Assembly: GCA_003141795.1 (NCBI GenBank)
Contig: PLNO01000320.1
Span: 1 to 13,756 of the forward strand
Length of the DNA stretch: 13,756 nucleotides
Source of the DNA: Spirochaetaceae bacterium
Lineage (GTDB): Bacteria; Spirochaetota; Spirochaetia; SZUA-6; Fen-1364
Reading direction: 5' to 3'
The notes below the pieces were generated by a model. That model saw nothing but the letters and a program-made list of their open reading frames with translations, did no database searches and had not been told where the DNA came from. Position 1 is the stretch's first letter. Each line of letters starts with the position of its first letter. This document shows, in pieces, positions 756-13,756 of the stretch. Position numbers and translations under genes: made by a program.

Positions 756-896
756 ATGTCCAAAAGGCTAGTGACTTCCTTTATGGGTGAGCAGAACTTG
801 CTCAGCCCCGACAACAACGTGCTGCTGCTCATCGACCGCAAACCGTCTCAGTTCGCAGCAGTCCAGAGCTTCTATTTTTTCCAGAGGAGGGTATGA
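756..896 (+). pseudogene. Isochorismatase-family hydrolase, N-terminal remnant
   Basis: A 46-codon frame starts at ATG 756, six bases after a GGAAGG ribosome-binding site (744-749). Residues 1-38 read like the N-terminus of YcaC-like isochorismatase-family hydrolases: TSFMGEQNLLSPDN followed by VLLLIDRKPSQFAAVQS. D27 sits where the family's catalytic aspartate lies. After AVQS the similarity stops. The frame ends with an unrelated FYFFQRRV tail and a TGA at 894-896 that touches the flavoprotein start. Full-length members are about 180-220 residues with a catalytic Lys and Cys, both missing here, so this cannot be an active enzyme. The simplest reading is an internal deletion that joined the 5' end of the hydrolase gene to the ribosome-binding site of the next gene. 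It may still be translated as a short peptide that couples to the downstream gene. The family call is from memory of the motif, not a search. Confidence 0.6.
883..890 (+). promoter_or_regulatory. Shine-Dalgarno site that decides the flavoprotein start
   Basis: AGAGGAGG lies just before two adjacent ATGs (893 and 896). The spacer is 2 nt to the first and 5 nt to the second, so ATG 896 is the better start. The stop of the upstream truncated frame (TGA 894-896) overlaps this start, which permits translational coupling. Confidence 0.65.
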
Positions 897-2524
897 TGTT
901 GACGGAATTTGAAGAACTGAATCGTATCGCGGCGCTGGCATCGGGTCCAGAGTCGGAAGCGGCTGCAGACATCCTGCCCGTCGCTCCCCCAAAGGCATGG
1001 AACCACGAGGCGGATATTGTGATAGTCGGAGGCGGTGGTGCAGGCTTGGCTGCCGCTTGCAGAGCAGCGGACATGCGCCGCTCGGTCATTGTCCTTGAGA
1101 AGACATCGCATACAGGCGGGAACGCCCAACATGCCGAAGGTGCGGCGGTATATGGGACCAAAGCCCAGGCGCGGGCGAATATCAAATTTGATCGAGACGC
1201 GCTCATAGCCCAAATATCGGCCACATACGCGGATACCATCAGTCGGCCACTGCTTACGACCCTTATCGATAGGGGACACGAGTTCTTTGATTGGGCCGAA
1301 GACCATGGCTTCCAATGGGGATCCTGGGAGGTGTTTGGGGTTCCGAGGCTCACATGCGCAGACAAGTATCCCTGGTGGGAAGATGACCCGAGGCCCGGGA
1401 ACTCTCGTCTATTGACCTTCAAACCTCTCACCGATTGGCTCCGCAAGTTCGCCGATGGCAAGGGCGTCCAGACCCTCGTCTCGACAAAGGTTTTGGCCTT
1501 AGTGGAAGAGAAGGGCAAGATCCTCGGGGTCAAGGCGCAAACGGTCGACGGCAAGGAACTGTTCGTGAAGGCGAAGCTGGGAGTCGTGCTGGCTTCCGGA
1601 GGTTTTACGAACAATCGGGCCATGCTTAAGAAGTATATCGATGGAGCAGCTTATGCCGTAGGTTCAACAGTCCCCCCGCGCGATACCGGCGAGGTCTTGA
1701 GGATGGCGCTTGGAGCCGGCGCAGACTCGGCGGGCCGTGGAACATGGATGGGCGGCCCTGGCGGCATACCCTATTATGACACGAAGTATACAGGCAAGGC
1801 GACTCCTGGGCCCTGGTCCCGGTATTATGTTTCGGGAGATGCCGGCTTGGCGAGGGCTTTCTGGCTGGAGTTGAACCAGGTGTGCGAAGAGTTCATGCCC
1901 TTCAACAACCTGGCCATGCAGCTGCCTGCCGCCGCGGTATACCTCGCACAGCCTGGACACTGCGGCTACGCGATCTTCGACGCCGACTTTCCCACGACCC
2001 TCTTCAAGTGGGGCCCATACCTGGGTCGGCGGCCTCTGCAGGAGTCGGACGCTGTCGATCCCGCTTTCGATTTCGGCATCGCCTCGCACAATTGGCTCGA
2101 CGACGTCAAGAAGGGGATCGAATGGGGAGGCATCAAGACCTCCGACACGATTGTCGGTTTGGCGAAGGAGCTCGGTCTCGATGCTGGCAAGCTAACCAAG
2201 GCGGTTGAAGCCTGGAATGCCAAGAGCTCGACCGGCCAGATGGACGAATGGGGTCGGCCTCCCGAGTTCCAGCCACCAGTCAAGAAAGCGCCGTACTACG
2301 GCATCAAGACGGGTGTTGCGGCCGTAGGAACTTTCTTTGGGGCGCGGGTGAACGAAAACTTCCAGGTGCTGGACGTGGACCAGAACCCCATACCAGGGCT
2401 CTACGCTGCGGGAGAGACCGCGGGTGGATCGGCCGGAGAACTCAGGCCTCAGTTCGGCGTTCTCTCCTGCCTCGGTTATGGGCTGGCTAGCGGTTTCATC
2501 GCTGGTGAAACGGCCCGGGCATAG
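896..2524 (+). CDS. FAD-dependent oxidoreductase, fumarate reductase/3-ketosteroid dehydrogenase flavoprotein type
   Basis: The product has 542 residues from ATG 896 (543 from ATG 893; positions below count from 893). The N-terminal Rossmann fold is clear: DIVIVGGGGAGLAAA at 41-55 has the GxGxxG dinucleotide signature, E69 ends the second strand (VIVLEK), and TGGN follows at 74-77. The C-terminal FAD motif PIPGLYAAGETAGG is at 499-512. This is the FAD_binding_2 family, which includes soluble fumarate reductases, urocanate reductase and 3-ketosteroid delta-1-dehydrogenase. These catalyse hydride transfer to or from a C=C bond next to a carbonyl or carboxylate. No signal peptide, haem motif or membrane segment is visible, so it is probably cytoplasmic. 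It lies 33 nt upstream of an aldo/keto reductase and probably shares its mRNA. Substrate and direction cannot be assigned, because I could not place the usual active-site arginine with certainty. Confidence 0.85.
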   Translation: MLTEFEELNRIAALASGPESEAAADILPVAPPKAWNHEADIVIVGGGGAGLAAACRAADMRRSVIVLEKTSHTGGNAQHAEGAAVYGTKAQARANIKFDRDALIAQISATYADTISRPLLTTLIDRGHEFFDWAEDHGFQWGSWEVFGVPRLTCADKYPWWEDDPRPGNSRLLTFKPLTDWLRKFADGKGVQTLVSTKVLALVEEKGKILGVKAQTVDGKELFVKAKLGVVLASGGFTNNRAMLKKYIDGAAYAVGSTVPPRDTGEVLRMALGAGADSAGRGTWMGGPGGIPYYDTKYTGKATPGPWSRYYVSGDAGLARAFWLELNQVCEEFMPFNNLAMQLPAAAVYLAQPGHCGYAIFDADFPTTLFKWGPYLGRRPLQESDAVDPAFDFGIASHNWLDDVKKGIEWGGIKTSDTIVGLAKELGLDAGKLTKAVEAWNAKSSTGQMDEWGRPPEFQPPVKKAPYYGIKTGVAAVGTFFGARVNENFQVLDVDQNPIPGLYAAGETAGGSAGELRPQFGVLSCLGYGLASGFIAGETARA

Positions 2525-2557
2525 CATCAAGCTCCACGTGGACGAAGGAGGCATCGA

Positions 2558-3592
2558 ATGCGGTATCGAAGATTCGGCCGGACTGGATTATTCGTGTCGG
2601 AGCTCTCGCTCGGGGCGATGACCTTCGGGGGCGGAAAGGGAACCTGGGGCGCCATCGGCAGGCTCGACCGTGATGAGGCCGAGAGGCTCATCGGGACGGC
2701 CCTGGACGCAGGAGTCAACCTCATCGACACTGCCGACGTCTATTCCGAGGGAGACTCGGAGACCCTCGTCGGCGCAGCCCTCGCCTCGCTGGGTCGGCCC
2801 CGGGACCAGATTCTCGTAGCGACGAAGGTCCGGGACCGGATCGGTCCCGGAGTCAATCAGCTGGGGCTCTCGCGGAGCCGAATCGTGTCGGGAGCCGAGG
2901 CGAGCCTGCGAAGGCTCAAGCTCGATCACATCGATCTCTATCAGATCCACGGCATGGACAGCGAGACCCCCATAGAGGAGACCCTCCGCGCTCTGGACGA
3001 CCTCGTCCGCTCGGGCAAGGTCCGCTACACCGGCTTCTGCAACCTCCCGGCATGGCTGGCGATGAAGGCCCTCGCGTTCTCCGAATCGAGGGGCTTGGCG
3101 CGCTTCGAGAGCGCCCAGGTCTATTACTCCATCGCCGGCCGCGACATCGAGCGCGAGATCGTCCCGCTCGCCAAAGACCAAGGTCTCGCAATCCTCCCCT
3201 GGAGCCCCCTGGCCGGGGGCCTTCTGTCCGGCAAATTCGACCTGGAGAGCCCCGGACCGGAAGGCGCGCGGCGTAGCAGCTTCGACTATCCGCCCGTAGA
3301 TAGGACGCGGGCGAAGGCCGTCCTGGCCGAGATGCGGAGTCTCTCCTCTGAGACGGGCCTGAGCGTGCCCCGCATAGCCCTCGGCTGGCTCCTGACGCGG
3401 CCTTTCGTGACGAGCGTAATCGTCGGCGCGAAAAGCCTCGAGCAGCTCGGCGACAACCTTGGCGCCACCGATGCAAGGCTGAACGCCGGACAAGTGGCCA
3501 GGCTCGACTCGGCGAGCGCCCTGCCTCCGGAGTATCCCGGATGGATACTCGAGTTTCAGGACGGCGGTCGCCGTCCCAAGGAGCTGGCTTAA
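2558..3592 (+). CDS. Aldo/keto reductase
   Basis: The 344-residue product starts MRYRRFGRTGLFVSELSLGA, the typical N-terminus of the (beta/alpha)8 aldo/keto reductase superfamily. AAGGAGG (2545-2551) lies 6 nt before the ATG. The catalytic tetrad is present: D57 and Y62 in DTADVYSEG, K90 in VATKVRD and H131 in QIHGMD. Later family motifs include GKVRYTGFCN (153-162), QVYYSIAGRDIE (187-198) and LPWSPLAGGLLSGKF (213-227). Members reduce aldehydes and ketones with NADPH, and this one resembles the YajO/Tas-like branch. Length is normal and the frame is intact. It follows the FAD enzyme by 33 nt, suggesting a two-enzyme redox operon opposite the AraC-type regulator. The physiological substrate is unknown. 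No terminator is obvious after the stop, and the downstream DNA is a graveyard of gene fragments. Confidence 0.9.
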   Translation: MRYRRFGRTGLFVSELSLGAMTFGGGKGTWGAIGRLDRDEAERLIGTALDAGVNLIDTADVYSEGDSETLVGAALASLGRPRDQILVATKVRDRIGPGVNQLGLSRSRIVSGAEASLRRLKLDHIDLYQIHGMDSETPIEETLRALDDLVRSGKVRYTGFCNLPAWLAMKALAFSESRGLARFESAQVYYSIAGRDIEREIVPLAKDQGLAILPWSPLAGGLLSGKFDLESPGPEGARRSSFDYPPVDRTRAKAVLAEMRSLSSETGLSVPRIALGWLLTRPFVTSVIVGAKSLEQLGDNLGATDARLNAGQVARLDSASALPPEYPGWILEFQDGGRRPKELA

Positions 3593-3622
3593 CCAAGGCC
3601 TACCGGATACGGTCCGCGCCCC

Positions 3623-3691
3623 TCACTGCCCCTCGTACCGCTGCAGCTCGTCGTAGACGAACTCGAGCTTCACCCCGGCGGCGCGGAACAT
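3623..3691 (-). pseudogene. C-terminal gene stub of unknown family
   Basis: Read on the minus strand, GC-rich DNA encodes 22 residues, MFRAAGVKLEFVYDELQRYEGQ, then TGA. Codon use matches the genes around it, not the AT-rich tract beside it. Immediately upstream the frame meets TAG and TAA, and the composition changes sharply at about 3692. This looks like the 3' end of a host gene cut by insertion or deletion. The pattern 'F..AG..LEFV...L..Y' vaguely recalls the C-terminus of WbqC-like proteins, but the piece is too short to assign. Confidence 0.4.
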
Positions 3692-3849
3692 GTCCTATTA
3701 CGTCTTTGATCCAACCCATCATTGGGAAATATTTTGAATACTTGGCATCATAAGCCCAAGGGTTCAGAAGAGCATTAACAGCTATGTTTTCCTGAAAGGA
3801 AATATCTTCAGGAGCTTCTCCTTTTCAAGGGATACTAGAATATAACAAG
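3692..3849. other. AT-rich non-coding tract next to the transposase fragment
   Basis: The sequence turns AT-rich at about 3692, just beyond the gene stub, and stays so up to the transposase stop. No coding frame with recognisable content is present. Small perfect dyads occur, TTTCCT/AGGAAA at 3788-3802 and AGGAG/CTCCT at 3810-3822. The tract is probably the non-coding end of the insertion element whose transposase remnant follows. A terminal inverted repeat could not be fixed because the other end of the element is missing. Confidence 0.45.
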
Positions 3850-4062
3850 TCAGGTCTTAGTCGGCTTTTGGGTTTGTTTTGAAGAACCGAAAAATTCATC
3901 AAGATCAATTGTCAACGGTGGTGCCTCGGGGAGCATGCATGTAATGATTTTTAGGTCAAGATGCTCCACGTCCTTGTATCCGTATCCCTGAGCTTGGATT
4001 TTGCGTATCCGACCATTCATTCTTTCGACGAAACCGAGCGGAACCCGATTCTCCTTCTTACA
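3850..4062 (-). pseudogene. DDE transposase C-terminal fragment, ISL3-like
   Basis: The minus-strand frame ends at TGA 3852-3850 and is open back to about 4068, where a TGA closes it. About 70 residues remain. The readable part is GFVERMNGRIRKIQ, then GYGYKDVEHLDLKIITCML, then a Lys/Thr-rich tail. The pattern [E/N]-x-N-x-[K/R]-I-[K/R]-x-I-[K/Q] followed by a GYG/GFRD block and an LKI helix is the usual C-terminus of ISL3-family transposases, where the last catalytic acidic residue sits close to this block. Most of the roughly 400-residue protein is missing, including the other catalytic acids, so it is inactive. The 5' break coincides with the 3' break of the reverse transcriptase fragment at 4058-4062. 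Base composition is lower in GC than the host genes. The transposase identity is fairly firm and the ISL3 family is tentative. Confidence 0.6.
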
Positions 4063-4276
4063 CCACGGTCATCTCGTCGATTCCCGCGGCTCCGCGATTC
4101 CCCACCACCTTTCGGTAGGCCTCCTGCATGTTCTTGCTCTCGACCACCTCCTCCATCAGACTCTGTTCTGTCGGTCGGGTCTCTTCCTTCTTTGCCGAGG
4201 CGCTTGAGGCACCAACACCCTGTCCTCGCGGATTCCGTCCGCTACTCTCGGGTATGGGATCGGGCTTCTCAGCCAT
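4058..4276 (-). pseudogene. Group II intron reverse transcriptase/maturase, N-terminal fragment
   Basis: A 72-codon frame starts at ATG 4276 after GGAGAGG (9-nt spacer). An in-frame ATG at 4300 is possible but has no such site. After a low-complexity, charged leader, the sequence SLMEEVVESKNMQEAYRKVV then GNRGAAGIDEMTV is the conserved start of group II intron-encoded proteins, before and into the RT-0/RT-1 region. The frame stops at TAA 4060-4058, right after MTVV, so the RT palm (YADD), maturase and any endonuclease domains are missing. Full proteins have about 420-600 residues. Location inside the intron RNA, after domain I sequence, is as expected for an ORF in domain IV. The break is shared with the transposase fragment. 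It cannot support splicing or mobility. Confidence 0.8.
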
Positions 4277-4710
4277 ACTACTCTGCCTCTCCTTCGCCAT
4301 CGAAACTCAGGCTCCCGTCCTCCAAGCTCATGTTCGGGCCTTCGGCGCTGATCGAATCGCCTACTATGCCCTCGGCTGACTTCTGCTCACCCATCCCCTC
4401 GCCTCGCGGCAAGAGTAGCTCACCGAGCAGATGGACAGATCTCCCCAGGTAATGCGCACCCACCTTCACGCTTATACCCGCTGCATCTACATCCGTGAGT
4501 TCCGTACAGGTATTGGACTTTGAGTTTAATGGCCCTCTCGTCCCTCATGGATGCCTCTATGCAGTTTCTGTTCGTCAGGCCAGCGCTTTGCCTGCGGCTT
4601 CCTTCGGATTCCGTCTCGCGACGGACACCCTTGCCGTTCGGCTAACTGTTCCCCCTGTCGGGCCAGTAGAGGACTTCCACCTCCGAGTGGGTGCGCCCTG
4701 CCGGGCGCAC
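4060..4710 (-). mobile_element. Group IIC intron, 5' portion (3' truncated)
   Basis: Read on the minus strand, the element starts at 4710 with GTGCGCCC, which pairs perfectly with GGGCGCAC (4698-4691) around a GGCA loop. It is followed by conserved domain I blocks such as AGTCCTCTACTGG, GAACAGTTAGC, GGCAAGGGTGTCCGT and GAATCCGAAGGAAGC. These closely recall the group IIC introns of Bacillales such as the O. iheyensis intron. The 5' GUGCG is the group II start consensus. The 5' exon end is the U-tract and CGTG of the rpmB terminator. Group IIC introns typically insert after intrinsic terminators in this orientation. The intron-encoded protein starts at 4276. I found no domain V motif or 3' splice site: the intron ends at a breakpoint near 4060 where transposase sequence begins. 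It is therefore a dead 5' fragment of about 650 nt. Confidence 0.82.
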
Positions 4711-4714
4711 CACG

Positions 4715-4748
4715 AAAAAAAGGGCTGCCCATTTTGGACAGCCCTTTT
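4715..4748 (-). terminator. Intrinsic terminator of rpmB
   Basis: In the minus-strand transcript, GGGCUGUCC (4744-4736) pairs with GGGCAGCCC (4730-4722) over 9 bp with one G-U pair and a 5-nt AAAAU loop. It is flanked by AAAA upstream and a run of seven U (4721-4715). It lies 22 nt after the rpmB stop. The group IIC intron begins four bases beyond the U-run. Confidence 0.92.
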
Positions 4749-4770
4749 CATTGGCAAACAACCGGTGAGG

Positions 4771-4962
4771 TCAGACGACCTTCACCACCTTGCCACTGCG
4801 GAGGCAGCGGGTGCACACCTTCAGGGTCGTTTTGGTCTTCCCGACCATGGTCTGGACCTTGAGAAGATTAGGCTTCCATACCCTGCGCGTTCTGTTCTTG
4901 GCGTGGCTCACCTTGTTTCCCGAGACCGTACCTTTTCCGCATATGTCACACTTGCGTGCCAT
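4771..4962 (-). CDS. rpmB: 50S ribosomal protein L28
   Basis: The 63-residue protein starts [20 protein letters not shown] and ends [27 protein letters not shown] (24-33) is the L28 signature region, which binds 23S rRNA in the large subunit. Two CxxC pairs, C5/C8 and C50/C53, make this the zinc-binding (C+) form of L28. Length and basic composition are normal. The frame is open upstream to 5160, but the family N-terminus and the MARKC start fix ATG 4962. The ribosome-binding region GGCAGGGAACC is modest. The gene stands alone, 151 nt from the caspase gene, with its own promoter-like element (5002-5030) and a strong terminator. It is therefore probably transcribed independently of the rhamnose operon. 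Confidence 0.96.
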
Positions 4963-5001
4963 TGGTTCCCTGCCTTCTGTGTCGTGTATCTTTAGGGGAG
5001 A

Positions 5002-5030
5002 AAAATACCCCAAAAACCGTGTCGTGTAAA
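5002..5030 (-). promoter_or_regulatory. rpmB: Candidate sigma-70-type promoter of rpmB
   Basis: On the minus strand a -35-like TTTACA (5030-5025) and a -10-like TATTTT (5007-5002) are separated by exactly 17 nt, 39 nt before the rpmB start. The region is the only AT-rich stretch between the caspase gene and rpmB. The -35 element overlaps one copy of a direct repeat, tgtcgtgta (5020-5028), whose other copy is at 4980-4988. The match is good but was found by eye. Confidence 0.55.
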
Positions 5031-5113
5031 GGGGGAAAGGAGAGATTCCGGCGGGGCACCGGCTCGCTCCCATCCACGGGGCAACCGGCAAGGGAATCAT
5101 CGCAGGGAGGTCG

Positions 5114-8100
5114 TCATGGCCGGCCCACCGGTAACGGAAGCGTCGCGTAGATGTTGTCACGGTCGACCACGGGCAACTGCTCCCTCAGATAGCCCGTGCG
5201 TGTTTCGGAGAGGACCTCACGGGACACGTAGGAGCGCAGCTCCTGCGAATCGACGATTCCGTCACCGTTCGTGTCGGCCTTCCCCGCCAGCGCTTCGAGG
5301 ATGAACCTCGTGAACAGCCCATTGCGGTAGTCGTCGCTCTCCCAGCTCACCTGGTCTCCCGTGCAGGAGGAGAACACGATCGCGCCGGACCGCCTGTAGA
5401 GATCGTTGTAGACGTAGCGGTCCCGCTCGAACCGCCAGGGCTGATAGCCGCCGGTTCCCGAGGAAGAGGCGGATGCGGTTCCCGTGTCGCTCACCGCGGC
5501 AACGACCCGTATGCCTTTGCCTCCGGCAGTAAACACCGGCCGGGACGGATCACGCTCCCCCGAGGCACACGTATCCATGAGAAACAGCTTGTTGCGGGCA
5601 GCGGTGCCCTGCAGCAGCTCGTCGAACAGCGCGAACGGGGCTGCGGTCTCCGCCAGACGATCGATCCTTGCTTCGTTGGTCAGGTAGTAGTACGTGGAGT
5701 GCGCATCGTAGAGCCCGTGACCGGAAACGAACATGATGACCGTATCGTCCGGCCGCGCCTGCCCCAGGATGTCGCGGGCCGCCCTGATGCCGTCCACCGT
5801 GGCCTTGTCATCTGCGAACACGGAGCTGATCACACGGCCGTAGCTGCCCTGCGGAATACGGGCGAAGAAGGCCCCGAGGTCCTGAGCATCCTTGGCCGCA
5901 TACTTGAGATCTATCGACGCCCCATTGTAGGTGTAGCGGTAATGCGAGACTCCGAATCCCACGAAGTACAGGTCGGGGAGGGAACGCCCCGACCACGGGA
6001 TGAAACGTGAGGGCCTGTAGCTTTCCGCTCCGCCCGCGTCCATGCAGCTGATCTCCACCTTGTTCATGCCGCCTGTGAGCTCGACGTCCTCGGTGACGCG
6101 CACTTCGCTTCCCGCCGTCTTCTTTCCCGGTGCACTGAAGAGCGGCACATCGTTCACGTAGATGTTGTACCAGGCGATCTCCTCCCCGCGTGGGGAGCGA
6201 AACAGGAGATCGAGGGCTACGTGCTTGTCAGATTGCCGGGAGGAGAGGAACCGGGCCTCCGGCGCCCCATCGTCCGATGTCAGAGCGCTCTCCTTCAGAC
6301 CGAGCCTGTCGAGGCGCTTCTGGTACAGCGTGCGGTAATAGTCGATCCGAGGCTTTGCCGTGCACCCCAGACGCTGGAGAATGATGTCCGGCCTGTTGTT
6401 GCGGACGGCGAATTGATCGATGTTCCAGTCCTCCATGCCCCGGGCCATGGCGACCATCTCCCCGGCTTTGGGGGATGAATCCCAGTAGCCGTCATCGGTG
6501 AAGATGAGCCAGTCCTTCCCGTTGGGGAGCGTCAGGAATGCCACCCATCTGCCCGTGGAGAGGTCCCACAGCCGCACCACACGGTCCAGGGAGAACGAGG
6601 CGGCCCTGCGGCCGTCAGGGGAAAAGGAAACGGAGAGGACGCGGCTCACCGTACCGGACAGCGTGCGCAGAGCCCTGCCGGTGGCGACATCCCAAAGAAT
6701 GATCGTACGATCATCCGATCCCGAGAGGAGCGAGCGAGCGTCAGGGGAGAACTGCAGGGCCGCCACCCGTGCGGCGTGACCGGCAAGGGTTTTGAGCTTC
6801 TTTCCCGTTCGCAGGTCCCACAGGTCGATCGAGGCATCCGAGCTCGAGGTTGCCGCAACGCGACCGTTGGGGGAGACAGCCGCGCATTCCACCCGGTAGT
6901 CCGGTCGCGCGAAAGACAGCACGCTCCTCCTCGCGGCGATGTCCCACACGTGAAATGAACCGGCATTGGAAATGGACAGGAGGACCCGCCCGTCGGGAGA
7001 TGCTGCCATGACGAGCACCTCTTCACCGGGAGCGGCATTGAAGGAGGGGATCTCCTCACCCGTCCGAGCAGACCACCGTTTGACCGTTCCATCGTAGAAA
7101 CCGGCGATCGCGACGGTGGACGTCATGCCGGCCATCACGATCGGGCTCTTCGTTCCGGCATCGAGCTCGCGAACGAGCTTCGCCTGCGGAAGGTCCCAGA
7201 GCTGGAGCCGGGATCCGTCAGCGGAGGAGATCGGGTTCGTCCCCGTGAGGAGGCGAGTGCGGTCGGGTGAGAGCGCGAGGTTGTCGATGATCCCCGAAGG
7301 GTGCGGCCCGGAAAGTTCCCACCACTGGCGCTGTTCGGGCACGAAACGGGCCTCGCTGAGCTTCCACGATCTCATCTGCCTGTCGCCACCCGCCAGCAGG
7401 ATCTGATCCCCGTCGGGAGTGAAGAAATCCCGGCCCACTGGTTCGAGGTACGTTATGGCGCCCGACTGGTTCCAATCGGGGAAGGAACGCACGCTCTTCC
7501 ACGAGACGCCGTCCACCAGGGTGAGCTTCGAAGACGTGTCGGAGAAGAGGAAGTTTCCGTCCCCTGCGGGGACGATGGCGCTGATCCAGGTGTCGCCCTG
7601 GAAGCTCCCGAGCTCCGCGCCGCTGTCCGCGTCCAATGCGACGATCCACCCGGCCTCCGAGCCGCACAGCACTTGACGGTCATCGTCTGAGAACGAGACG
7701 CACGTGATCGGTCCCTTGCCTCCGGTGAAACGCCGCATTTCCCTGCCGTCGTCCGCGATGTCCCACACCCTGACGGTCCCGTCGCTCGAGCCGCTCACTC
7801 CCCGCCTCCCGTCCTTCGCAAAAGCGACGGAGGTGACGGTGTCGGAGTGACCGGAGAGGATCCGCGGGTCCCCGCCGGAAGCGAAGTCCCACACGAGCAC
7901 CGATCCGTCGCGTGCTCCCAGCAGCGCGGATCGTCCTGACGGAGAAACCGCCACGGAGGTGAGGAGACCCCGCGCACCGTTCAGCCCGCCGTTCAGACGG
8001 CCTTCGACGGCACCTGACTCGGCTCGGATGAGGATGACGCTGGAGCCTGAAACGACGAGGGCGTGGAGGTCATCGGGAGTCACGGCAACGGCATCCGCCG

Positions 8101-8470
8101 ATGCGGGGACATCGAGGGCGAGCGACCAGTTCTGCTTTCCGCTGGCGAGGTCCCAGGAGGATACGACGCCCGCAAGGCCGGAGCAGGACAGCGCCGTTTT
8201 CCCGTCATGCGTCAGGGCCACGGCCTGGATCCCCGTCCTCGAGCTGCTGAAGAATGTCCTCATCTGCTTGCCCGAGCCGAGATCCCAGAGGATCATGGTG
8301 GCGTCAGCGGAGCCCGACAGTGCGAACCTGCCGTCGCTCGACACGGCACACGACGTGATGCTGTCGCTGTGCCCGTTCTGGACAACGAGCATCGGTGCAT
8401 CCAGGGCGGCGAGCGGCGCCGCTGAACAGAGGATCGCAATGAGCGTTGCGGCAACGCGGGGAGTCCGCAT
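5114..8470 (-). CDS. Secreted WD40-repeat caspase-like (peptidase C14) protein with EF-hand loop
   Basis: The product has 1118 residues from ATG 8470, chosen because [23 protein letters not shown] is a clean signal peptide and rhaEW ends 20 nt upstream. The open frame itself extends further into rhaEW. Residues about 30-650 contain many WD40-type repeats (for example [39 protein letters not shown]), likely one or two beta-propellers. A linker with DDGYWDSSP (659-667) and [10 protein letters not shown] (693-702) is typical of bacterial WD40-caspase proteins. The caspase p20-like fold spans about 830-1060. SGHG gives catalytic His918 and MDTCASG gives Cys968, so the dyad is intact. [12 protein letters not shown] (1066-1077) is a canonical EF-hand calcium loop. 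The protein is probably a calcium-responsive, exported cysteine endopeptidase (Arg/Lys-specific in related families). Target and role are unknown. It is the last gene of the rhamnose operon. Confidence 0.88.
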
Positions 8471-8490: not shown

Positions 8491-10470
8491 CTATCCCAGC
8501 ATGACCTGACCGCCGGTGACCGGCACGGCCTGACCGGTCTCGTAGTCCTGGTCCACGATGTACAGGATGGCCTTCATCACGTCCTCCACCCTGCACCCGC
8601 GGCCCATGGGGACACGCGACTCGTACGAGCGGCGCACGTCCTCCACCGTTTTCGCTCCGGAGACCTTTCCCGCGCGGAGGTACTGCACGAACAGCCCCTT
8701 CTCAGGGTCCGACCATAGAGGACCCTCGAAGAAGTTCCCAGGACAGACCGCGTTCACCTTGATCCCGTGCTCGACCAGCTCGAGTGCGAAAGACTGGGTG
8801 AGACCGATCCCGCCGAACTTCCCCCCCGCATAGGCGAAGTTCTTGTTGCTCCCCTGGAGGCCGGACTTGGAGTTGATCTCCACGATGTCCCCGGTCCACT
8901 GGGGCCGGCAGCGTCGCTGGAGCTTCATCACGGGTGAGAGGTACTTCACGCAGAGGAAATAGCCCGTGTAGTTCACCTTTGTCACGAACTCGAATCCTTC
9001 GGGGGTCATCTCCTCCAGGCTCCCCGCCTTGAGGACTCCGGCATTGCTCACCAGGAGGTCGAGACCTCCGAAGGCTTTCACGCATTCCCTGCCCAGCCCC
9101 TGCAGGGACGCGGGGCTCGTCACGTCAGCGGTTACGAACAGGGTCCTGTTCGTGGCACCCGAGGCGACGGCGGACGCGTTCAGCTCCGCCTCAAGGCTGT
9201 GGCCCGCGGATTCGTTGAGGTCCGCGATGACGACGTTCGCCCCTTCTCGGAACAGGCCTTCGGCGATGCCCTTGCCGAAGCCCTGCGCGGCACCGGTGAC
9301 GATGGCGATCTTCCTCTCCATCCTTCGATGACCGGCGGCCCCTTTTGCCACGCTGCGCCTGTAGTTCTCCACCTCCCAGGTATCGATGAACTGGATGTGC
9401 GAAGCTGCGAGGAAGTGCGGTCCACCGAAGGATCCGGAGAGGAAGCTCACCTTCATCAGGTCGTCGAAGACGTCGAGGCACGTGTCCGCGGAGCGCTTGT
9501 TGTCCTCCACGGCAACGACGCCCAGCCCGCCGATGAGGATGATCTTCGGCGCGTACCCCCAGGTCTTTCGATACACCTCCACGGCCGCAGGGAAGCCGTT
9601 CAGGAATGCGTCCGGGTCCTCCCCGAGGTCCAGGATGAGGGGCGCCGACTTGCAGTACACGATGTTGTCCGGCATGAAGGGAAACGACACCGCCGCGCGG
9701 TTCTCCGGCAGCAGGAAATGCTCGGCAAGCGCATTGTTTCGCGCAGCGGCGACAGAAAGCCCTTCTGGACCGGAGAGGAGCACGCGGATGCCGGGAAGCA
9801 CGCGGGCAATCGCGTCGGGAACAGCCTTTTCCTCCCGCGGCAGGGACACCGTGAATCGCGCGGTGATCTTCCGGACGATCCCGTCGGTGAGCGTGTTGAT
9901 CTCCTTCACCGTGTCGGCGGCAACCACAAGACCGTGGTTCTGCATGAAGACGATGTGGGGGTCCCCGCGAAAGCGGCTGCGGTATGCCGCGAGCTTTTCC
10001 TCCATGAGCTTGGCCAGACGGTAGCCGGGATCCGAATACGGGACCCAGAGCGCTTCGTCTCCGAAGAGCTCCTTTGCCGTTGCCTCGCCGCGCACGGAGC
10101 AGGTGAGAGCGTTGATGACGGTCGGATGCGTGTGCACGACGAGGCGGAAGCCGATCATCTCGTGGAGGGATGTTTCCACGGACGGTCGTCCCCCTTTGTC
10201 GGGCTCCGTTCGGCAGGCCATGAGATCAACCTTGATCTCTGACTCGCGCTTGAAGGGGTCCGTGCTGTAGCTCTTCGCCATGATCCCCCGCAGCGCCGCG
10301 CGGGAGAGCTCGACGAAACCTGAAGCGGCGATGTCCCGCAGCCCGATTCCGCTCGCCTTGATGACGAGGCGCTCCGCATCCTTGATGGACGTGTTGCCGC
10401 CGCCTGCGATCACGAAATCGTTTCCCCGCCCGTAGAATCTCGATACTTCGATGAGATCAGCCAGCTCCAT
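8491..10470 (-). CDS. rhaEW: Bifunctional L-rhamnulose-1-phosphate aldolase / L-lactaldehyde dehydrogenase
   Basis: The 659-residue fusion starts MELADLIEVSRFYGRGNDFV. The ATG at 10470 is 2 nt after the rhaA stop, with AAGAGG inside the end of rhaA as ribosome-binding site. Residues 1-380 form a class II aldolase domain, with GGGNTSIKD (23-31) for phosphate binding and metal ligands likely at H113 and H115 (HTHP) and H179 (NHG). Residues 385-659 form an SDR domain: TGAAQGFGKG at 392-401, NAG at 476-478, S534, and Y547/K551 of YxxxK. This architecture is the YuxG/RhaEW type. The aldolase splits L-rhamnulose-1-P into dihydroxyacetone phosphate and L-lactaldehyde, and the SDR oxidises lactaldehyde with NAD+. 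Length is close to the family's usual 680-700. The rhaA neighbour supports the pathway. All expected catalytic residues are visible. Confidence 0.92.
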   Translation of the reverse strand: MELADLIEVSRFYGRGNDFVIAGGGNTSIKDAERLVIKASGIGLRDIAASGFVELSRAALRGIMAKSYSTDPFKRESEIKVDLMACRTEPDKGGRPSVETSLHEMIGFRLVVHTHPTVINALTCSVRGEATAKELFGDEALWVPYSDPGYRLAKLMEEKLAAYRSRFRGDPHIVFMQNHGLVVAADTVKEINTLTDGIVRKITARFTVSLPREEKAVPDAIARVLPGIRVLLSGPEGLSVAAARNNALAEHFLLPENRAAVSFPFMPDNIVYCKSAPLILDLGEDPDAFLNGFPAAVEVYRKTWGYAPKIILIGGLGVVAVEDNKRSADTCLDVFDDLMKVSFLSGSFGGPHFLAASHIQFIDTWEVENYRRSVAKGAAGHRRMERKIAIVTGAAQGFGKGIAEGLFREGANVVIADLNESAGHSLEAELNASAVASGATNRTLFVTADVTSPASLQGLGRECVKAFGGLDLLVSNAGVLKAGSLEEMTPEGFEFVTKVNYTGYFLCVKYLSPVMKLQRRCRPQWTGDIVEINSKSGLQGSNKNFAYAGGKFGGIGLTQSFALELVEHGIKVNAVCPGNFFEGPLWSDPEKGLFVQYLRAGKVSGAKTVEDVRRSYESRVPMGRGCRVEDVMKAILYIVDQDYETGQAVPVTGGQVMLG

Positions 10471-10472
10471 TC

Positions 10473-11747
10473 CTATCGCCTCTTCAAGAGAACAGTTTTC
10501 TCGTACTCGGTGACCTTTTCCAGCCATGCGGCTCCGACGGGAACTTTCTGACGCGCACAAAACGCGTCCCAGACCGCGCCGTAGGGGAGGTCACGGATCT
10601 CTTCCAGCAGGGAAAGTCGGGCGGTGAAGTTGCCCGCGGCCTCTTCCCGTCGCAGCATCTCCGTCGGTTCCAGCAGGGCAAGGAGGATCGCCTTCAGGGT
10701 CGCACGCGCGCCGATCACCCACGCGGCCACCCTGTTGATGCTCGCATCGAAATAGTCGGTAGCGACAAACACCTTGTCCCATGCGCCCGCCCGGGCCACC
10801 TCTGCGGCCACGGCCTTCACGTCGTCGTTCAGCGTCACCACATGGTCGCTGTCCCAGCGGACCCCCCTGCTCACGTGCAGGAGAAGACCGCGGCCGAACA
10901 GGAGGATCGTGGAGATCTTGTCGGCGACGGATTCGGTGGGATGGTAGTGCCCCATATCGAGGCAGAGCAGCAGGTCCTTCTGCAGCGCATAGGAGAGGTA
11001 GAACTCGTGAGAGCCCACGACGCAGGATTCCGAGCCGATGCCGAAGAGCTTCCCCTCCAGCGCGTCGCGGATGAAACGCGGGTCCCTGCGCTTCTCGAAG
11101 ATCGTGTCCAGGGAATCCTTGAGGAGCTGGCGCGGCGTGGTGCGGTCCACGGGCGTGTCCTTGAAGCCGTCCTGGATCCAGAGGTCAACGACGCAGGGGC
11201 TGCCCAGCTCCTTCCCCATCGCCTCCCCGATCTCACGACAGCGCAGCGAATGGTTCACCCAGAACTCCCGCACCTTCCTGTCCCGGGAGGAGAGGGTGAA
11301 TCCCGATTCCGCCATGGGGTGGCTGAAATACGTCTCGTTGAAGTCGAGCCCGATTCCGAGCTTCTTCGCCCATGCCATCCAGCCGGCAAAGTGCTCGGGG
11401 GCAAGGGCGTCACGGGAGACAGCGCGTCCGCCCGTCTCGGCGTAGGTGGCATGGAGATTTGCCCTGTGGAGGCCGGGGATGAGGGAAAAGGCGAGCTCGT
11501 AATCGGCGCGCAGCTCATCCGCGTTGCGGGCCTTACCGGGATAGCTGCCGGTGGCCTGGATACCGCCTCCTGTGAGGCCCGCGGAGTTTTCGAACCCTCC
11601 AACGTCGTCTGCCTGCCAGCAGTGCAGGGACAGGGGGATTTTCGCGAGCATTGAGAGGGCTTTTTCGACGTCGACACCCCACAGAGCGTAGGCCGCGCGC
11701 GCGTTCTCGAAGTTTCGCTCGACCTGGTCAGGGGAAAGATGCTGCAT
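10473..11747 (-). CDS. rhaA: L-rhamnose isomerase
   Basis: The protein has 424 residues, close to the 419 of E. coli RhaA. It starts MQHLSPDQVERNFENARAAY, with GGAGG (11761-11757) 9 nt before the ATG. RhaA hallmarks are WQADDVGGFE (44-53), SCVVGSHEFYLSYA (241-254), CLDMGHYHPTE (262-272), LLLHVSRGVRWDSDHV (288-303) and FDASINRVAAWVIG (333-346). The metal ligands known for the family (E. coli E234, D267, H294, D334) match E231, D264, H291 and D331 here with a constant offset of three. The enzyme interconverts L-rhamnose and L-rhamnulose in the cytoplasm with a divalent cation. It lies 40 nt after the hexokinase-family gene and 2 nt before rhaEW, so it is the middle of a catabolic operon. The gene is intact. 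Confidence 0.96.
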   Translation of the reverse strand: MQHLSPDQVERNFENARAAYALWGVDVEKALSMLAKIPLSLHCWQADDVGGFENSAGLTGGGIQATGSYPGKARNADELRADYELAFSLIPGLHRANLHATYAETGGRAVSRDALAPEHFAGWMAWAKKLGIGLDFNETYFSHPMAESGFTLSSRDRKVREFWVNHSLRCREIGEAMGKELGSPCVVDLWIQDGFKDTPVDRTTPRQLLKDSLDTIFEKRRDPRFIRDALEGKLFGIGSESCVVGSHEFYLSYALQKDLLLCLDMGHYHPTESVADKISTILLFGRGLLLHVSRGVRWDSDHVVTLNDDVKAVAAEVARAGAWDKVFVATDYFDASINRVAAWVIGARATLKAILLALLEPTEMLRREEAAGNFTARLSLLEEIRDLPYGAVWDAFCARQKVPVGAAWLEKVTEYEKTVLLKRR

Positions 11748-11787
11748 TCTCGGGGACCTCCGGCGTTCCTACGGTATGCGCCGGGCC

Positions 11788-13101
11788 TCAGTTGGTCAAT
11801 GCCGCGATGGCAGACCCCAGGAGCGGCGCGTCCTCGACGGCAGTGATCTCCCATGCGCGTTCCTGCCCTGCCCGCAGCAGCCGACGCATGTGGTGCTCCA
11901 CCCGGGAGCGGAACGTGCGCAGCTGCCAGAACGTCGTTCCGTCGACCGTGATGCACACCGGGAACCGGGGGTCCCGCCCGCTGTCGGTCTTCAGGAGGAT
12001 CGCCCCGAGATCCACAGCGACGAGAAGCGCTGCCCGCTCGACGATGGTGTCGCAGATGACGTATATGCTGCGCGCATCCTCCGAGGGGAGCCTGCCGCAC
12101 ACGACGCCGAGGGGATTGCTGGGGGTGTCGGGATAATTGAGGAAGTCATTGAGCTCCCGGGTCGAAAGGGACGGCACCCGGTCGAGCTCCTTGGACGCCT
12201 GAGGGGAGAGCAGGCCCACCTTTGCCGCGCTGCGCACCGCGAAGAAGCACAGCGCGCCCAGATATGCGCCGGAAATGGCTTTTTCGTTCCGATACTTGCC
12301 GGGGTTGGCCATGGTGGCATCGAACTCGTCGTCGACCCGGCCGCGCGGCCACCCGGCGAAGGAACCGGATTCCGTGTTCACGATCTGCGAGCCGTCGGGG
12401 TCCAGGCCCGCCGTCTTCGTGATGAGGGCGTTGCGCTCCACGTAGGCGGCGTTGAGACCCGTGCCGCAGACCAGACCGATGAAGTCGTCGAAATGCCGGC
12501 CCGGCAGGGCGTTACGCCCGGCGAGCAGCGTAGCCACCGTGTCGTTGATCACCACTATCCGCGAAGGCTCCCTGCCGCCGACCGCCGCGAGCGCCCGCCC
12601 CAGGCTGCGGCCCACGAGCTGCCCTTCCACCCCGCGCGCCTTGATCTCCTTCGTGAACTGGATGAGCTTCCCGTCCTTCTCGGGGGTGATCTCCGCGGGA
12701 AACGAGAAGCAGAAACCGATCCTGTCGACACCGCGCGCCACGGGAAGAACGAACTCTGCCATGGCCCGGAAGAACTCGTCGCGCTCCAAGGCTTCGTCGA
12801 TGCCGGGGATCCTGTGCCGCACGAGATCCTCGATCAGGGGCTTTCCCTGCGCGTCGAAGCTCACCCGGGCGACCCTGAGGTTCGTGCCCCCGACGTCCAG
12901 CGCCACGACCTTTTCTCCCCGGGACACGGAGCGGGCGGTCTCGATGTAGGTGGGGATCATCGGCAGGGAGGAGGGGCGGCCTTCCAGCCCGCGCGTCATC
13001 TCTTCCCCGTAGGCGCGGCAGCAGTCACCGATGTCCATGGCCTCGGCAAGCATGCGGTTGCGACGGAGAAAATCAGTCAACGGCTTTCGGGGATCCTTCA
13101 T
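11788..13101 (-). CDS. Hexokinase-family sugar kinase (candidate L-rhamnulose kinase)
   Basis: The 437-residue protein belongs to the eukaryotic-type hexokinase family (hexokinase_1 and hexokinase_2 domains), one half of the mammalian enzyme's length. Motifs in order: ATP phosphate-1 LDVGGTNLRVARV (68-80), sugar-binding FSFPAE (132-137), catalytic Asp187 in NDTVATLLAG (186-195), adenosine/phosphate-2 GTGLNAAYVE (213-222), NTESGSF (242-248), EKAISGAYLG (273-282) and VDGTTFW (386-392). It should transfer phosphate from ATP to a hexose. ATG 13101 has GGAGG 6 nt upstream. The TTG at 13116 would put this site inside the coding region and is less likely. The ATG overlaps the stop of the aminotransferase by four bases (ATGA). 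Directly downstream is rhaA, and no FGGY rhamnulokinase is in the window. The operon therefore suggests L-rhamnulose as substrate, but glucose or a general hexokinase role remains possible. Confidence 0.88.
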   Translation of the reverse strand: MKDPRKPLTDFLRRNRMLAEAMDIGDCCRAYGEEMTRGLEGRPSSLPMIPTYIETARSVSRGEKVVALDVGGTNLRVARVSFDAQGKPLIEDLVRHRIPGIDEALERDEFFRAMAEFVLPVARGVDRIGFCFSFPAEITPEKDGKLIQFTKEIKARGVEGQLVGRSLGRALAAVGGREPSRIVVINDTVATLLAGRNALPGRHFDDFIGLVCGTGLNAAYVERNALITKTAGLDPDGSQIVNTESGSFAGWPRGRVDDEFDATMANPGKYRNEKAISGAYLGALCFFAVRSAAKVGLLSPQASKELDRVPSLSTRELNDFLNYPDTPSNPLGVVCGRLPSEDARSIYVICDTIVERAALLVAVDLGAILLKTDSGRDPRFPVCITVDGTTFWQLRTFRSRVEHHMRRLLRAGQERAWEITAVEDAPLLGSAIAALTN

Positions 13102-13756
13102 ACTGTGCCTCCACAACGGCGCGCGTAGCGGACGGCCTCCGCCATGTAGCCGACCGCATCCGACAGCCGCCCTGCCTCCTCGTACCCGTAGGAGAAGCGG
13201 AGCTGACGCATGCCCTGCTCCACCATGCGGCCCTTGGGGTGCACGCAGAACTGTCCGGGGATGTAGGCCACGCGCGGCAGACGGCTCTTCGGCGGTCCAT
13301 CCAGGGCATCCTCACCGGTCGTGCGGGCGAGATAACGGAAGAACGCGGAGGACTCGTCGGTGCGAACGCCGTCGAGAGTGAGGTAATAGTAGAAGCTGGC
13401 CTGCCCGCCGCGACATTCGAGCATGGCATCCCCCAGGCGGGAGTCGAGCCAGCCCCGCACCTTCAGAGCCTTGTCGCGGTAGCCGCGGGTCACGTCGTCG
13501 AGCTGCCGGTCGAGCGCGTTGTCCAGGAGCCAGCTGGCGATCTCCTGGTTGATGAGCGGGCCGCTGAAGCCGGCGTCGCTCGTGCGCTGGATCATCGCGC
13601 GCACGAGCGGGCTGTCCCTGGCGATGAGGTAGCCGATCCGCAGGGACGGGGCGATGATCTTGGAAAGCGTGCCGATCTCGAGCACCACGCCGTCCTCGTC
13701 ATCGAGGAGGCCCGAGCGGGGCTTCTCCACACTGGGGTCGTGGATGAGGTCCTCGT
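13098..13756 (-). CDS. PLP-dependent aminotransferase, class I/II fold (partial, N-terminus outside window)
   Basis: The frame enters from the right edge and gives 218 residues to TGA 13100-13098. IGTLSKIIAPSLRIGYLIA contains the Schiff-base lysine (K32 of the visible part, counted from the first complete codon at 13754), in the SxK..xPxLRxGY form of fold-type I aminotransferases. QLRFSYGYEE near the C-terminus has the arginine that usually binds the substrate carboxylate. The branch resembles 2-aminoadipate/aromatic aminotransferases and the C-terminal domain of MocR-type GntR regulators. Whether a winged HTH precedes it cannot be seen. The stop overlaps the kinase start by four bases, so both are probably translated in a coupled way. 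Its role in a rhamnose operon is unclear. If it proves to be MocR-like it could be the local regulator; otherwise it is an unrelated amino-acid enzyme co-transcribed by position. Confidence 0.82.
   Translation of the reverse strand, partial: EDLIHDPSVEKPRSGLLDDEDGVVLEIGTLSKIIAPSLRIGYLIARDSPLVRAMIQRTSDAGFSGPLINQEIASWLLDNALDRQLDDVTRGYRDKALKVRGWLDSRLGDAMLECRGGQASFYYYLTLDGVRTDESSAFFRYLARTTGEDALDGPPKSRLPRVAYIPGQFCVHPKGRMVEQGMRQLRFSYGYEEAGRLSDAVGYMAEAVRYARRCGGTV
13108..13112 (-). promoter_or_regulatory. Shine-Dalgarno site that decides the hexokinase-family gene start
   Basis: GGAGG lies 6 nt before ATG 13101 and inside the last codons of the aminotransferase gene. It supports the ATG over the upstream in-frame TTG at 13116, which has no such site and would place GGAGG within the coding sequence. 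The arrangement, with overlapping ATGA, is typical of translational coupling. Confidence 0.75.

Follow-up and report, generated by a model that had tools for sequence, protein, structure and literature searches.

A eukaryotic-type hexokinase encoded beside rhaA in mostly uncultured Spirochaetia is probably an ordinary hexose 6-kinase

Eukaryotic-type hexokinases are widespread in bacteria. They are described in Bacteroides and two spirochaetes in the accessible part of PMC1665464, and the 80 hexokinase loci that we kept from the GTDB collection (L001–L080) include members from Planctomycetota, Bacteroidales, Clostridia, Balneolales, Kiritimatiellae, Lentisphaerae, Aminicenantes and Spirochaetes. 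RhaB and FucK (solved structures 2cgj and 4c23), which would occupy the same pathway step as a hexokinase acting on L-rhamnulose, belong to a different kinase family, FGGY. In the available portion of PMC2876114, rhamnulose is named only as a substrate of FGGY kinases; according to the accessible text of PMC3245297, RhaB and FucK form a single, poorly resolved cluster of possibly mixed specificities, and the rhamnulokinase of E. coli accepts L-fuculose. A rhamnose kinase gene of Caldicellulosiruptor is mentioned in the available part of PMC4187192 with no family given there, and no report of a hexokinase-family rhamnulokinase was found among the matches listed from the open-licence literature, as far as the available portions of those texts go. 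RhaEW of Bacillus subtilis and Chloroflexus, a class II aldolase–short-chain dehydrogenase (SDR) fusion encoded beside rhaA, is described in the accessible part of PMC3870299.

Here we analyse a 13,756-nucleotide stretch of DNA (the window; contig PLNO01000320.1), probably from an uncultured spirochaete. It encodes a eukaryotic-type hexokinase whose gene, in distinction to the bacterial members of this family cited above, has an aminotransferase gene on one side and rhaA on the other. The features of the window are as follows.

13098..13754, minus strand: PLP aminotransferase (class I/II; PF00155), 3' part, open at the window edge; a 79% identical gene lies upstream of the hexokinase gene of the related genome G001
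11788..13101, minus strand: eukaryotic-type hexokinase gene, 437 aa (open reading frame from the ATG at 13101; PF00349 and PF03727; best match in the PDB by sequence, human hexokinase-2)
12541..12543, minus strand: codon of catalytic Asp187, in the INDTVAT motif (placed by motif position in the sequence)
11748..11787, minus strand: 40-nt gap between the hexokinase gene and rhaA, with GGAGG ahead of the rhaA ATG (by eye)
10473..11747, minus strand: rhaA, L-rhamnose isomerase (NF002203, 639 bits, cut-off 572; TIGR01748, 597 bits, cut-off 585)
8491..10470, minus strand: fused class II aldolase/SDR gene, divergent RhaEW-like (PF00596 and PF00106; TIGR02632, 236 bits)
4771..4962, minus strand: rpmB, ribosomal protein L28 (TIGR00009, 80 bits), the end of the conserved neighbourhood; in G001, it comes after the fused aldolase gene

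The minus strand thus carries, in order, the end of the aminotransferase gene, the hexokinase gene, rhaA, the fused aldolase/SDR gene and, about 20 nt further on, a WD40-caspase gene (8470–5114), followed by rpmB. The preliminary description, made from the DNA alone, had placed a hexokinase with intact Asp187 ahead of rhaA at a distance of 40 nt; the open reading frame, the Pfam scores, the motif position and the rhaA ATG at 11747 all bear this out. It had overlooked that the aminotransferase TGA overlaps the hexokinase ATG (ATGA, 13101–13098). The fused gene most likely starts at ATG 10470, 2 nt past the rhaA stop, the starts of this gene and of the WD40 gene being our choice, and the hexokinase gene is probably co-transcribed with rhaA and the fused gene. 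Among the listed Pfam results for the nine main window ORFs scanned, no FGGY match was found.

Other genes of the window include the WD40 gene itself (5114–8470, minus strand), whose large product combines WD40 repeats with a caspase-like domain at the C terminus (NF047832, 63 bits, cut-off 140) and which is absent from this position in G001, rpmB there coming after the fused aldolase gene. A short ORF at 4058–4300 (minus strand) resembles, by eye, the beginning of a reverse transcriptase of the group II intron kind and is possibly a remnant, and a FAD-binding oxidoreductase gene and an aldo/keto reductase gene lie at 893–3592 (plus strand), 33 nt apart.

The names rhaA and rhaEW given in the preliminary description fared differently. 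RhaA passes both L-rhamnose isomerase equivalog cut-offs and keeps its name. The fused protein shares the domain order of RhaEW and, like the RhaEW fusions described, lies beside rhaA, yet it scores 236 bits against a cut-off of 568 for the RhaEW model TIGR02632, so that "rhaEW" holds only as a family-level name. The 28% identity measured is with a Martelella protein that is encoded on a plasmid and annotated as RhaEW-type, rather than with the two assayed enzymes of B. subtilis and Chloroflexus, and the closest PDB relative of its SDR half is sorbitol-6-phosphate dehydrogenase. Stand-alone relatives of its aldolase half adjoin rhaA at several other Spirochaetia loci, as expected for a rhamnulose-1-phosphate aldolase. 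A Bacteroidales locus (L061) encodes a 51% identical relative of the fused protein at 3585–5564 and a eukaryotic-type hexokinase at 9983–11266, about 4.4 kb off, together with a Zn-dehydrogenase, a fructokinase-like kinase and deoC. No RhaA match was found in this locus, so the fused aldolase may have other roles.

The survey of relatives proposed in the preliminary description did recover the arrangement, in two genomes of one family. In G001, the gene for a hexokinase 70.5% identical to that of the window immediately precedes rhaA and the fused aldolase gene, and the whole row reads aminotransferase, ACT protein, hexokinase, rhaA, fused aldolase, rpmB. The aminotransferase gene of G007 is followed by a transporter-like and an ACT gene (both recognised by eye), then by a frame-broken hexokinase gene and by rhaA at the contig end. 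The GcvR-like ACT-domain gene between aminotransferase and hexokinase genes (L189, 1418–1987; L190), present in G001 and, by eye, in G007, is missing from the window. G001 carries a second, unlinked hexokinase, paralogue C57. G008, the third genome of this family, has rhaA and two hexokinase fragments that lie outside the clade and on other contigs. Among 394 Spirochaetia genomes, G001 and G007 alone have a listed hexokinase no more than 20 kb from rhaA, a lower bound drawn from the 79 of 95 genomes with both genes for which hexokinase positions are among the matches listed. No RhaA match (E≤1e-8) occurs in any of the 80 kept GTDB hexokinase loci, of which the best is 54% identical and many lie on short contigs; a RhaEW-like match occurs in one of the 80, and one, L001, belongs to G001.

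Beyond these genomes, the hexokinase and RhaA match lists have 32 contigs in common by equal longest-contig size, where chance gives a mean of 1.15 and a maximum of 5 (120 offset shifts). Likewise, 21 contigs are common to the hexokinase and fused-aldolase lists (chance mean 0.91), and 23 to the RhaA and fused-aldolase lists (chance mean 0.73), ten of these without a listed hexokinase. The comparison used the best 120 hexokinase, the best 120 fused-aldolase and 119 RhaA matches, leaving out the window's own fragment (P0346); it takes equal size to mean the same contig and speaks for co-occurrence rather than adjacency, notably for the 14 of 32 contigs longer than 20 kb. The hexokinases on contigs shared with RhaA are 57–86% identical to that of the window, and the four entries of the homologue list that carry an organism name all read Spirochaetia bacterium. 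The linkage of hexokinase gene and rhaA is thus old and conserved. A chance linkage, the alternative offered in the preliminary description, is unlikely, and we reject it on the gene order of G001 and G007 together with the 32 shared contigs. The neighbourhood of aminotransferase, ACT, hexokinase, rhaA, aldolase/SDR and rpmB genes, in the window without ACT, appears to be a shared inheritance of a clade of Spirochaetia, most of them uncultured. It is not clearly specific to rhamnose, since the aminotransferase, ACT and rpmB genes, for which no part in rhamnose use is evident, belong to the conserved block.

The hexokinase itself scores over the curated cut-offs of both of its Pfam domains (PF03727, 139 bits against 24; PF00349, 89 bits against 24.3), and no FGGY model among Pfam and NCBIfam matched it, which sets it apart from the known RhaB and RhaK. 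It aligns with human hexokinase-2 over residues 30–414 (441-aa frame) and has the same active-site motifs as human hexokinase-2 and hexokinase-1 (2nzt, 1hkb), but it is a single unit rather than a duplicated one, and Y270 replaces the glutamine of the human NPGKQ motif. INDTVAT begins at residue 185, and Asp187 is intact. Human hexokinase IV contacts glucose through T168, K169, N204, D205, G229, E256 and E290 (accessible part of PMC7201273). The window residues T150, K151, N186, D187, G215, E244 and E273 align with these; the mapping runs through the hexokinase-2 alignment and the residue numbering, and they are putative glucose contacts. We added N217, which we take to be the equivalent of N231 of human hexokinase IV. 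Two residue comparisons were made. One set 33 clade rows (30 of the 46 aligned P-series rows, up to P0080, plus the window, G001 and G007) against 107 other bacterial hexokinases and left out L001, C57 and two G008 rows, the frame-broken G007 row being unusable at residues 270–273 and beyond; the other covered all 120 P-series proteins, the close homologues.

Seven of the eight contacts (K151, N186, D187, G215, N217, E244 and E273) are identical in 107/107 other bacterial hexokinases, and the same seven are identical in 119 or 120 of the 120 close homologues, so that in Pfam domains, catalytic Asp and putative contacts the window protein is like the bacterial eukaryotic-type hexokinases compared. 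Only residue 150, the counterpart of T168, varies: it is T in the window, G001, G007 and human hexokinase IV, S in paralogue C57, and S (58), T (18), C (18), N (7), V (4) or A (2) in the 107 others. It does not track linkage to rhaA, since T and S occur both in the 32 homologues on contigs shared with RhaA (T 27, S 5) and in the other 88 (T 68, S 20). A simple column criterion marked V211, C212, W392 and M405 as typical of the clade, and all four also occur in the unlinked C57. By distance in a quick tree, of which part of the drawing was available, the window protein clusters with C57 and its own close homologues, away from the remaining hexokinases in the sample. The preliminary description had proposed a comparison of the sugar pocket for signs of altered specificity; for the contacts listed and with this simple criterion, seven of eight contact residues reveal no change towards an L-ketose. 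Judged by its residues, the pocket resembles the one found in ordinary glucose kinases and is hardly changed.

We then consider candidate rhamnulokinases elsewhere. The preliminary description proposed to check for the absence of FGGY RhaB. Both searchable relatives with the hexokinase–rhaA arrangement carry RhaB/FucK-family kinases, as does G008, and for the relatives we reject a lineage devoid of rhaB-type kinases, be the candidates RhaB or FucK. FGGY-kinase matches number 20 in G001, 18 in G007 and 10 in G008. The curated cut-off of the rhamnulokinase model is 528 bits. Scored against this model, two kinases of G001 are candidates (373 bits with the entire model covered, and 350 bits over positions 56–452), as are one of G008 (397 bits) and one of G007, split by an assembly gap; all fall below the curated cut-off, which a kinase exceeds in only 3 of the 394 class genomes. 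The G001 candidate C186 has orthologues in G007 (70.5% identity, gapped) and G008 (66.6%); among proteins of solved structure, those nearest to it in sequence are FucK (4c23, 249.5 bits) and RhaB (2cgj, 244 bits). About 7 kb from it on its contig lies a rhamnose-mutarotase-like gene (74.9 bits, cut-off 99.6). FucI-family matches occur in all three genomes, and the FGGY kinases may therefore serve fuculose; next to the FucI-family genes in L267–L272, where the contigs of G001, G007 and G008 span only 5–7 kb, none of the FGGY kinases used as queries was recognised. A rhaB gene elsewhere in the genome, which the preliminary description itself had named as speaking against its proposal, is thus closely approached in G001 and G007, except that the candidates score below the cut-off and are possibly fuculokinases.

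Across the 394 Spirochaetia genomes, rhaA is found in 143, a RhaB-type kinase (E≤1e-60, a threshold that misses the split kinase of G007) in 122, and both in 89 (odds ratio 10.9); the hexokinase family is found in 228, in 95 of them with rhaA (odds ratio 1.76, p 0.011). These counts take no account of phylogeny or missing genome parts, and linked genes separated by a contig break look unlinked. The co-occurrence of hexokinase and rhaA across the class is weak, slightly above that expected. In at least 36 genomes, the listed RhaB-type matches include one no more than 5 kb from rhaA; with 89 genomes having both, RhaB-type kinases are commonly encoded at a distance from rhaA in the class, contig breaks allowed for. 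No RhaB-type match at E≤1e-60 was found in 54 of the 143 rhaA genomes, and some rhaA loci in those 54 adjoin other FGGY-like kinases (by eye). As to whether the hexokinase is the sole glucose kinase, the three family genomes point neither way: ROK-family matches are present in all three and Glk (PF02685) in none of them. With 10 ROK matches besides its FGGY matches, the 4.1-Mb genome bin G001 looks to have a large set of sugar kinases.

Taken together, the hexokinase is probably an ordinary hexose 6-kinase encoded beside rhaA, with rhamnulose-1-phosphate made by an unlinked FGGY kinase. It would be a canonical eukaryotic-type bacterial hexokinase that phosphorylates D-glucose and similar hexoses at O6 with ATP, and L-rhamnulose would most likely be phosphorylated by an unlinked kinase of the RhaB/FucK group, which the window's own genome presumably encodes as its relatives do. 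The contacts unchanged except at residue 150, the clade markers shared with C57, the RhaB/FucK-type kinases of G001, G007 and G008, the stronger association of rhaA with RhaB-type kinases than with hexokinases, and the non-rhamnose genes of the conserved neighbourhood all argue for it. However, the linkage with RhaA persists down to 57% hexokinase identity, beyond what a purely accidental neighbour would lead one to expect; the unlinked hexokinase of G001 could cover glucose, and ROK proteins are at hand in all three family genomes; and the FGGY kinases of the relatives could be fuculokinases, with many rhaA genomes of the class lacking a RhaB-type match. The T at residue 150 in the linked proteins of the window, G001 and G007, against S in C57, also stands on this side, yet S occurs in 5 of 32 linked homologues and T in hexokinase IV.

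The same observations bear on the preliminary description's own proposal, which gained no positive support, that the hexokinase replaces RhaB by non-orthologous displacement as the rhamnulokinase of the pathway, acting on O1 of an L-ketose. We regard this as unlikely. The position just upstream of rhaA in G001 and G007, the 32 shared contigs, the nine window ORFs without an FGGY match, the second G001 hexokinase that could serve glucose and the sub-cut-off scores of the relatives' RhaB/FucK-type kinases would all fit it, but the contacts are unchanged save at the variable residue 150, G001 and G007 have RhaB/FucK-family kinases, and 6-deoxy-L-fructose would, by stereochemical reasoning rather than computation, offer a D-sugar pocket the mirror images of its 3- and 4-hydroxyls in either ring orientation. 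That in this mostly uncultured clade a standard glucose pocket serves as an L-rhamnulose 1-kinase, the FGGY kinases elsewhere being for L-fuculose, is likewise improbable. A D-hexose kinase might instead be kept in the operon where rhamnose is imported with glucose or mannose from mixed glycosides (e.g. rutinosides) and both are activated together; this would reconcile the intact D-hexose pocket with the conserved linkage, but we consider it doubtful, as no glycosidase or sugar transporter was found among the nine scanned window ORFs and the genes next to the hexokinase gene in G001 and G007 are instead those of an aminotransferase and an ACT protein. Members of the RhaA family accept D-allose, L-lyxose and L-mannose, and isomerase, hexokinase and aldolase could act on another sugar altogether, the hexokinase phosphorylating O6 of the resulting ketose, e.g. 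D-psicose. The divergence of the fused protein from RhaEW, the sorbitol-6-phosphate dehydrogenase likeness of its SDR half and the Bacteroidales relative about 4.4 kb from a hexokinase gene in a locus with no RhaA match found would suit such a route, which is nevertheless very improbable, given a RhaA over both L-rhamnose isomerase cut-offs and the stand-alone aldolase relatives adjoining rhaA at several other Spirochaetia loci.

Were the hexokinase a rhamnulokinase after all, it would mean a change of both sugar handedness and phosphorylation position within the hexokinase family. As the evidence stands, the locus is a caution that gene neighbourhood alone can point to the wrong kinase, and a clear case in itself, combining a conserved linkage, an unchanged pocket and candidate FGGY kinases elsewhere.
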